Origin: a virus
Length of the DNA: 39,345 nucleotides
Reading direction: 5' to 3' (one strand)
IMG/VR virus record: IMGVR_UViG_3300031785_000016
Coordinates: 1 to 39,345 of that record
The position numbers and the translations under genes are program-made. The notes beneath the pieces were generated by a model. The model was not told where the DNA came from. It ran no database searches and worked only from the letters and a program-made list of their open reading frames with translations. Positions 332 to 1,762 of the stretch are shown here, piece after piece. Every line of letters begins with the position of its first letter. Position 1 is the stretch's first letter.

Positions 332-1762
332 ATGAAAAAGTTAAAAATGATTGATCTATTCAGTGGCGGTGGAATGTTCTCCTACGCTGCTGAAAAACTT
401 GTTGGCGGTATTGAAACAATACAATTTTGTGAAATTGATTCATACTGTAAAAAAGTTCTTAAAAAACATTGGCCTTTAGTTCCTATTCACGATGACATCA
501 GAACCTACAAACCAGAACCATATTCAGCAGACATTGTGGTCGGAGGATTTCCTTGCCAAGATTTGTCCTGTAGTGGCAAACGCCTTGGTATCACAAAAGA
601 AACGAGGTCTGGCCTCTTTTACGAACTCATGCGAGTCGTATGCGTGGTTCGACCCAAATACGTCATCATGGAAAACGTGGCAGCGATCCTTAATAACGGA
701 TTGGGAATTGTTCTCGGAGAGCTTTCCAAGGCAGGGTTTGATGCAGAATGGGGAACTTTTCGAGCAAGCGATTATGTCCGAGCCGCCCACCACAGAGATC
801 GATGGTTTTGCATTGCAATTAACAGAGACTTTACCGACCCCAACAGCGATGGATATAAGAGAAGATGGGCTGAAACACGCAACAAAAATGCTGCAGGGGA
901 AAACTCACAGATCATCAGGCCAACCAATACAGGTGACTTTGAGCGACAAAGTAATGATGAATCAAATCAAGGACAATCCAGAGTTGATGAAAATTTATCA
1001 GGATCATCAAATACAGGAAAGGCCATATCTCCCAAGTCAGGAGGAGTTTGTGAGTTATCTAAGAAAACAAGCAACGATCAAGGAACTAGCAGCCAAGACA
1101 AATATCAGGAAAACAAAGATAGAACATTGGTTTCGGAAGGACAAAGCGGGATTCAGTTATCCCAGCATCGAGGATTGGGAAGTGATAAAACCACATTTGA
1201 TAGAGATTCAATTCGACAAAGAAATGACAACAGTGAAAACAAAGGAGTGGACTTCCAAAAGTCCAATATTACCAACTCCGACAGCATCGGACATCGAGGG
1301 AGGGACAGCCAAAGATGTTCAGTTCAAGAACGGCAGCTTTTACAGGGAGAACAAGAAAGGGGAAAGGTGGGGAGTAAAACTCAGGGATGCAATAACAATA
1401 CTCCCAACACCAACAACAATGGATCATTTATCCCAAAGAAGCCCACAGGCACTGAAAAATTTGATGGAGGGAGCAAAGAAAGGAAGGAAATCTTTGTCAA
1501 ATCTGAGGGAAGCAGTCAATCCAGAAACTCAAGAACTGTTCAACAAACTTCAAAATGGAGAAACACAGAACACTTACTCAACCCAAACTGGAAAGAATAT
1601 GGTGTTGAACCCGCAATTTGTGGAGATCCTGATGGGCCTACCTCTGAACTACTCACAAATCGAGCCAGCAGACTTAAGTTGCTCGGAAACGGATTAGTGC
1701 CGCAATGTGCAGCTATCCCTCTACAACGTGTTCTGGATTTAGAAAATGAATCACAAACTTGA
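332..1762 (+). CDS. DNA cytosine-5 methyltransferase (Dcm type) with an overprinted middle
   Basis: Transfers a methyl group from S-adenosylmethionine to cytosine C5 in a specific DNA site. Motif I (DLFSGGG, residues 8-14) binds the cofactor, motif IV (GFPCQ, 72-76) carries catalytic Cys75, motif VI is ENV (114-116), motif VIII is around 153-162 (HRDRWFCIA), and the terminal motif X (LGNGLVPQ) lies in the last 33 residues. Between about 168 and 430, where the target-recognition domain is expected, this frame gives a low-complexity stretch rich in N, S, Q, G, K and E. The same DNA in another frame encodes a well-formed protein (492-1697). Likely role: protecting phage DNA from host restriction. 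No cognate nuclease was seen next to it. Confidence 0.88.
   Translation: MKKLKMIDLFSGGGMFSYAAEKLVGGIETIQFCEIDSYCKKVLKKHWPLVPIHDDIRTYKPEPYSADIVVGGFPCQDLSCSGKRLGITKETRSGLFYELMRVVCVVRPKYVIMENVAAILNNGLGIVLGELSKAGFDAEWGTFRASDYVRAAHHRDRWFCIAINRDFTDPNSDGYKRRWAETRNKNAAGENSQIIRPTNTGDFERQSNDESNQGQSRVDENLSGSSNTGKAISPKSGGVCELSKKTSNDQGTSSQDKYQENKDRTLVSEGQSGIQLSQHRGLGSDKTTFDRDSIRQRNDNSENKGVDFQKSNITNSDSIGHRGRDSQRCSVQERQLLQGEQERGKVGSKTQGCNNNTPNTNNNGSFIPKKPTGTEKFDGGSKERKEIFVKSEGSSQSRNSRTVQQTSKWRNTEHLLNPNWKEYGVEPAICGDPDGPTSELLTNRASRLKLLGNGLVPQCAAIPLQRVLDLENESQT
492..1697 (+). CDS. Overprinted methyltransferase-associated protein with an HTH-like domain
   Basis: This 401-codon frame lies entirely inside the methyltransferase gene, shifted by one base. 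A second frame this long without a stop in AT-rich DNA is very unlikely by chance. The product looks globular. It has a TSSWKT-type segment (about 57-62), LPTPT motifs at 114, 260 and 304, an HTH-like stretch ending in IEHWFR (about 183-222), and a C-terminal NPQFVEILMGLPLNY. From memory, SSWKT/LPTPT/MGFP proteins occur in or beside phage Dcm genes, and a VEHWFR domain occurs inside some phage and archaeal DNA methyltransferases. I infer an accessory or target-recognition partner. No clear Shine-Dalgarno precedes the ATG, so the start is uncertain. Confidence 0.6.
   Translation: MTSEPTNQNHIQQTLWSEDFLAKICPVVANALVSQKKRGLASFTNSCESYAWFDPNTSSWKTWQRSLITDWELFSESFPRQGLMQNGELFEQAIMSEPPTTEIDGFALQLTETLPTPTAMDIREDGLKHATKMLQGKTHRSSGQPIQVTLSDKVMMNQIKDNPELMKIYQDHQIQERPYLPSQEEFVSYLRKQATIKELAAKTNIRKTKIEHWFRKDKAGFSYPSIEDWEVIKPHLIEIQFDKEMTTVKTKEWTSKSPILPTPTASDIEGGTAKDVQFKNGSFYRENKKGERWGVKLRDAITILPTPTTMDHLSQRSPQALKNLMEGAKKGRKSLSNLREAVNPETQELFNKLQNGETQNTYSTQTGKNMVLNPQFVEILMGLPLNYSQIEPADLSCSETD

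Follow-up and report, generated by a model that had tools for sequence, protein, structure and literature searches.

A phage gene overprinted on a C5-cytosine methyltransferase probably supplies motif IX and an array of recognition cassettes

Multispecific phage C5-cytosine methyltransferases of the SPR/phi3T type carry tandem short recognition modules between motifs VIII and IX. In M.EcoHK31I, the small chain is reportedly encoded within the large one in another reading frame, and both are said to be required. The large chain of that enzyme holds motifs I-VIII, motif X and a predicted recognition domain, and the small chain holds motif IX; in M.AquI, motifs I-VIII lie in one chain and motifs IX-X in a small subunit (PMC3404938). 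We analyzed a virus record of 39,345 bases in its entirety (hereafter, the window), which encodes terminase, portal, major head and tail genes, together with a pair of genes overprinted on its plus strand. The larger gene, alpha (332..1762; ATG at 332, TGA at 1762; 476 aa), encodes the catalytic chain of a C5-cytosine methyltransferase and contains motifs I-VIII and X. The second, beta (492..1697; ATG at 492, TAG at 1697; 401 aa), runs in the +1 frame of alpha and comprises an N-terminal domain, three cassettes and motif IX. The initial annotation had recognized these two genes on the same DNA, and its coordinates and frame assignment were exact. It is very likely that together they encode a heterodimeric C5-cytosine methyltransferase, with recognition residing in exchangeable beta cassettes.

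The distribution of motifs is that of M.EcoHK31I (compared here by description) and M.EaeI, with motifs I-VIII and X in the larger chain and IX in the smaller. The nesting reported for the M.EcoHK31I small-chain gene also has its counterpart, since 492-1697 lies within 332-1762 in the +1 frame. However, the recognition domain of M.EcoHK31I has been placed in its large chain, whereas the window cassettes are arrayed in beta and the equivalent region of alpha is a disordered linker; moreover, M.EcoHK31I belongs to a restriction-modification system, while the window enzyme looks like a phage orphan. M.AquI had been proposed as the precedent. It does share with the window the division of the enzyme between a catalytic chain and a chain with recognition and motif IX, but its small subunit carries both IX and X, whereas motif X of the window is in alpha, and M.EcoHK31I is therefore the better precedent. 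Relative to the latter, the new element is most likely the transfer of recognition to an array of exchangeable cassettes in beta, and revisiting where the literature places the recognition domain of EcoHK31I is a fair question. The SPR/phi3T type is similar in arrangement, having tandem modules between VIII and IX, but there the modules belong to the same chain and frame, and here to a second, overprinted chain. A search of plasmids for an EcoHK31I-like relative of beta found none, with two weak matches only.

Alpha matches PF00145 (3e-37), TIGR00675 (6e-31) and phrog_363 (1e-62), and the motifs expected of a PF00145 catalytic chain are found in it, apart from motif IX: motif I (DLFSGGG, 353..373); motif IV with the catalytic Cys (GGFPCQ, 542..559), whose PCQ is invariant in two alignments; motif VI (MENV, 668..679), whose ENV is invariant in one of these; the motif VIII region (HHRDRWF, 788..808); and motif X (LLGNGLVPQC, 1679..1708), placed by sequence and alignments, which overlaps and then follows the end of beta. 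We recognized no motif IX in this chain. From motif VIII to the motif X region (833..1588) extends a low-complexity linker, the alpha-frame read-out of the beta cassettes. The low complexity of this recognition region, already noticed in the initial annotation, covers about residues 194-441, which are also predicted to be disordered and were modeled at a pLDDT of about 28-46. The prediction is confident for the motif X helix and over most of the catalytic domain, and residues 2-476 of the M.HhaI-like model align with M.HhaI chain residues 10-327 (Z 20 over 205 residues). About 120 M.HhaI residues find no match in the alpha model, consistent with alpha apparently having the M.HhaI fold minus its small domain.

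The middle of alpha is of low complexity and little constrained beyond staying open, and the related gp9.1 of Streptomyces phage phiBT1 has been annotated as 'may be inactive'. Alpha could thus be seen as the decayed remnant of a catalytic chain, with only the DNA-binding cassettes of beta still of consequence, the two together being an inactive or regulatory DNA-binding protein. We find this very improbable, given that Cys75, ENV, motif X and other catalytic motifs are unchanged in 21 alphas, and that the alpha frame is kept open for >250 codons, apparently just to reach motif X. The overlapping ORF present in phiBT1 (see below) may itself explain the annotation of gp9.1.

Motif IX (LNPQFVEILMGLP) is found in beta. 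The initial annotation was right in assigning motifs I-VIII and X to the alpha frame, but omitted this one, which lies at 1605..1655 (LNPQFVEILMGLPLNYS) and is recognized by its signature, directly upstream of motif X of alpha. Both motif IX and the recognition region, absent from alpha, are thus present in beta, as shown by their sequence pattern, their location and their homology with single-chain enzymes. Along the DNA the order is ordinary for a C5 methyltransferase (I-VIII, recognition region, IX, X), and the frame switch is confined to the recognition region and motif IX. Beta opens with an N-terminal domain (WFDPNTSSWKTWQRSL...FPRQGLMQNG, 492..830) overlying alpha motifs IV-VIII, which is conserved beyond the shadow of alpha and, in searches against phage proteins, matches phrog_1008 'DNA methyltransferase' at 7e-19 (residues 7-135). 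Next come three interchangeable "PTP" cassettes: the first (LPTPTAMD..., 831..1268, 146 aa) includes a helix-turn-helix (HTH) at about 1029-1199; the second (LPTPTASDIEGG...RENKKGERWGVKLRDAI, 44 aa) spans 1269..1400; and the third (LPTPTTMDHLSQRS...) occupies 1401..1604 together with a spacer. The three LPTPT motifs and the HTH ending in IEHWFR, within 401 codons, are as originally described. The two PHROG families, phrog_1008 for beta and phrog_363 for alpha, are annotated without mention of partnership, cassettes or frame relation.

When alpha was fused in silico to motif IX of beta, the Pfam match stayed about unchanged in 4 of 5 loci; at the fifth, L047, it gained 11 bits, a weak extension. 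With no clear gain from the fusions, we base the assignment of motif IX on its pattern, its location and the single-chain relatives. Beta alone was modeled at pLDDT 54, a poor fold; a Foldseek search of the PDB with this low-confidence model returned no significant structural match, and the beta profile matched nothing among PDB sequences. Judged by their sequences, beta N-termini fall into two classes, with no shared N-terminal constraint between the window and the class of L009.

If alpha were the sole gene, beta would be an open shadow of its composition, which does generate long +1 runs by chance. To quantify this, we held the protein of one ORF fixed and either shuffled its synonymous codons or redrew them by phage codon usage. 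With alpha fixed, shuffling left on average 156 open codons in the +1 frame (maximum 362) and re-coding 97 (maximum 327), against 405 observed, a value equalled in 0 of 20,000 randomizations in each test. The third frame at alpha, with 46 open codons, is ordinary. In the converse experiment, with beta fixed, the alpha frame remained open for at most 114 codons in 20,000 re-codings, against 401 observed.

Substitutions between the window and its near relative L001 tell the two frames apart. Counted by alpha codon position (1:2:3), those in the cassette region number 29:6:6, the first alpha position corresponding to the third of beta; over the N-terminal overlap the tendency is reversed, at 9:7:16. 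These opposite patterns indicate that the constrained product is beta in the cassette region, and alpha where motifs IV-VIII are encoded. We then held alpha proteins constant, redrew their codons, and scored similarity in the beta frame against expectation. In pairs whose alphas are 48-69% identical, the N-terminal overlap was more similar in the beta frame than expected, with z of 4-10. As a control we used the stretch of these genes that precedes the overlap, where z ranged from about -1 to 3.7. The null ignores codons shared by ancestry, which this control answers in part. Synonymous-site constraint begins where beta begins, and the excess is small or mostly absent upstream. The +2 frame in the overlap was also raised, less than the beta frame, as expected since double coding freezes nucleotides. 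The homologues thus indicate that alpha and beta are both genes, and the earlier impression that both frames are informative is borne out: alpha does not evolve as a normal single gene would, with substitutions collecting at beta position 3 over the recognition region and excess constraint in the overlap. Nor were the homologues found to keep only the alpha frame open; the +1 frame is open and conserved in viral and genome loci alike. In L005-L008 and L035, moreover, beta goes on past the alpha stop, and after motif IX, outside any overlap, carries an HTH cassette with 47-56% identity to that of the window, which shows the cassette to be a mobile protein unit in its own right rather than a shadow. 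Considering also the re-codings, the codon-position bias and the presence of motif IX in beta only, the shadow reading is almost certainly wrong.

We saw the overlapping two-frame arrangement at well over a hundred loci, phage or prophage-like, from many microbial groups, and in essentially all of those compared, whether picked through beta or through alpha only. Scanning viral contigs with beta yielded 57 relatives; where both genes matched, beta always lay at +1 to an alpha. Scanning them with alpha alone yielded 80 loci, and automatic scoring placed motif IX in the +1 frame and X in alpha in 57 of these, and IX in the +1 frame only in 2; by eye, most of the remaining 21 are alike. No single-chain form was scored among the 80. 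A scan of prokaryote genomes produced 36 loci, and in about 35 of them beta overlaps alpha at +1. Their sources are Pseudomonadota, Bacteroidota, Chloroflexota, Myxococcota, Actinomycetota, Thermodesulfobacteriota, Hydrogenedentota and archaeal assemblies. Many were assembled from metagenomes and may represent prophages or mis-binned viruses. The split of motifs, with IX in the small chain and X in the large one, holds in most relatives.

Annotation of these loci is uneven. Both genes are annotated, nested, in Paenibacillus phage Jacopo, and beta has no annotation in Synechococcus phage S-H1. We found no description of a phage family of this kind in the openly readable literature. The architecture is apparently widespread and little recognized. 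Some loci show further peculiarities. In uncultured phage KM23-C739 (L060:1498-2423), alpha is split between two frames near residue 40, by either a sequencing error or a real change, and beta is annotated while most of alpha is not. In L121:2489-3262, the +1 frame holds a truncated motif IX and then motif X, apparently through one frame change.

Across relatives, beta is built of the N-terminal domain, a variable number of PTP-opening units and motif IX. With an automatic rule, we extracted 424 beta-frame cassettes from 181 loci, at 0-7 per beta; most relatives have 1-7 between motifs VIII and IX in DNA order. The cassettes form 37 multi-member families plus many singletons under single-linkage clustering, by which the largest family is probably several merged. 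One family can occupy different positions in the array, as cassette 1 of the window does; over all cassettes, positions 1-7 were seen. The third cassette of the window is missing from L001 by an exact, clean 147-nt deletion. Extension of beta past motif IX and the alpha stop, with an HTH cassette, is seen at L005:5406-5819 and likewise in L006, L007, L008, L035 and L071.

The cassettes can be compared with those of single-chain enzymes. In Babsiella gp54, from an actinobacterial phage, motifs I-VIII, six PTP cassettes, IX and X follow one another in one frame, and phrog_1008 spans both beta and the C-terminal part of this protein (1.9e-81). Related cassettes occupy the recognition region of single-chain actinobacterial enzymes; four cassette families are common to beta and to in-frame single chains, and the beta profile aligns with the cassettes and motif IX of these enzymes (hhalign 95%, 2.6e-8). 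Since homologous cassettes and motif IX fill the VIII-to-IX interval of single chains, the earlier suggestion that beta provides specificity in trans is supported, and we infer the partnership itself.

The HTH part of cassette 1 (EHWFR-type) also occurs in a Twort-like Staphylococcus phage (L067:1431-2573). We rejected this match as the same enzyme: it is an amino-methyltransferase, which shares the HTH part of cassette 1 between its PPY and FxGxG motifs. The recognition region of such amino-methyltransferases is expected between these motifs. As a side observation, the HTH unit would thus appear, on sequence grounds, to be a recognition unit common to two methyltransferase classes. It is on account of the single-chain cassettes and of this HTH that we call the cassettes recognition units; each one is probably a separate unit, with a target of its own.

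Other divisions exist among actinophages. In Streptomyces phages phiBT1 and Vash (L065:1501-2548, L061:1290-2343), alpha ends after motif VIII, and a +1 ORF has the cassettes, IX and X; this is nearer to the M.AquI division, but with an overlap in the +1 frame. Arthrobacter phage 1191A and mycobacteriophages have a +1 ORF with the N-terminal domain and cassettes, though IX and X are in alpha. Such ORFs, with a beta-like N-terminus (ETLPTSGMTRSG) and PTP cassettes, were noted at L062:1844-2347, L063:1847-2158, L070:1688-2137 and L069:1835-2485, where IX and X are in the main frame of the methyltransferase; their cassettes are possibly extra recognition units acting in trans. When the catalytic domains of 122 alphas are placed in a maximum-likelihood tree, the actinobacterial single chains and the phiBT1/Vash form make up one clade (100/100), nested in a group that also holds split enzymes (99/92). 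This suggests that single chains arose from split enzymes by frame switching, an origin suggested and not proved, as the tree is unrooted and the sampling was partly beta-driven.

Programmed ribosomal frameshifting could instead join motifs I-VIII of alpha to the cassettes and motif IX of beta as a single chain, and in phiBT1 and Vash one +1 shift would indeed yield a complete enzyme. In loci of the window type, however, two opposite shifts would be required to regain motif X, and a shift further downstream would not call for the beta-frame constraint seen on the 110 N-terminal codons of beta, which overlie motifs IV-VIII. Both points favor separate initiation. In addition, relatives have a separate beta ATG in a comparable position, and many of them carry a good Shine-Dalgarno sequence (AAGGAG, AGGAGG or similar) 5-10 nt ahead of it, inside alpha codons. 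No Shine-Dalgarno was seen before beta in the window, as for about half of the other window genes sampled. We consider frameshifting unlikely.

We therefore favor a two-chain enzyme made from separately initiated genes. Alpha would fold into an AdoMet-binding catalytic domain, which the motif X segment at its C-terminus would rejoin across the long disordered linker. Beta, presumably translated from its own ATG within alpha in the window as well, would supply the missing small domain, consisting of the array of recognition cassettes followed by motif IX, and the resulting complex would be catalytically active. With cassettes as separate recognition units, their gain or loss would change or broaden the set of methylated sequences.

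The pair is adjoined by RusA-like resolvase and replication initiation genes. Nearby, a small protein encoded on the minus strand (2282-2479) has four Cys with zinc-ribbon-like spacing (CPIC...CLECGH). Among the genes scanned in the window, we saw no restriction endonuclease next to alpha and beta, and the likeliest role is therefore that of an orphan methyltransferase for self-protection of phage DNA; the phage would most likely use the enzyme to shield its DNA from host restriction.

More broadly, the 1.2-kb same-strand overprint is a conserved architecture, found in several bacterial phyla and archaeal assemblies, and not a curiosity. It explains C5 methyltransferases that seem to be without a recognition domain; in the records examined, one gene of the pair is often missed, or labeled without a role. 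The cassettes form a natural collection of candidate DNA-recognition units that recombine easily. If split and single-chain forms interconvert by frame switching, as the tree suggests, the way in which long double-coding genes arise becomes open to test. We lean, somewhat tentatively, towards a widespread phage-borne class of multispecific C5 methyltransferases whose specificity array lies wholly in an overprinted frame, with cassettes that can come and go provided the alpha linker frame remains open. If this is true, the range of targets evolves without change to the catalytic domain.
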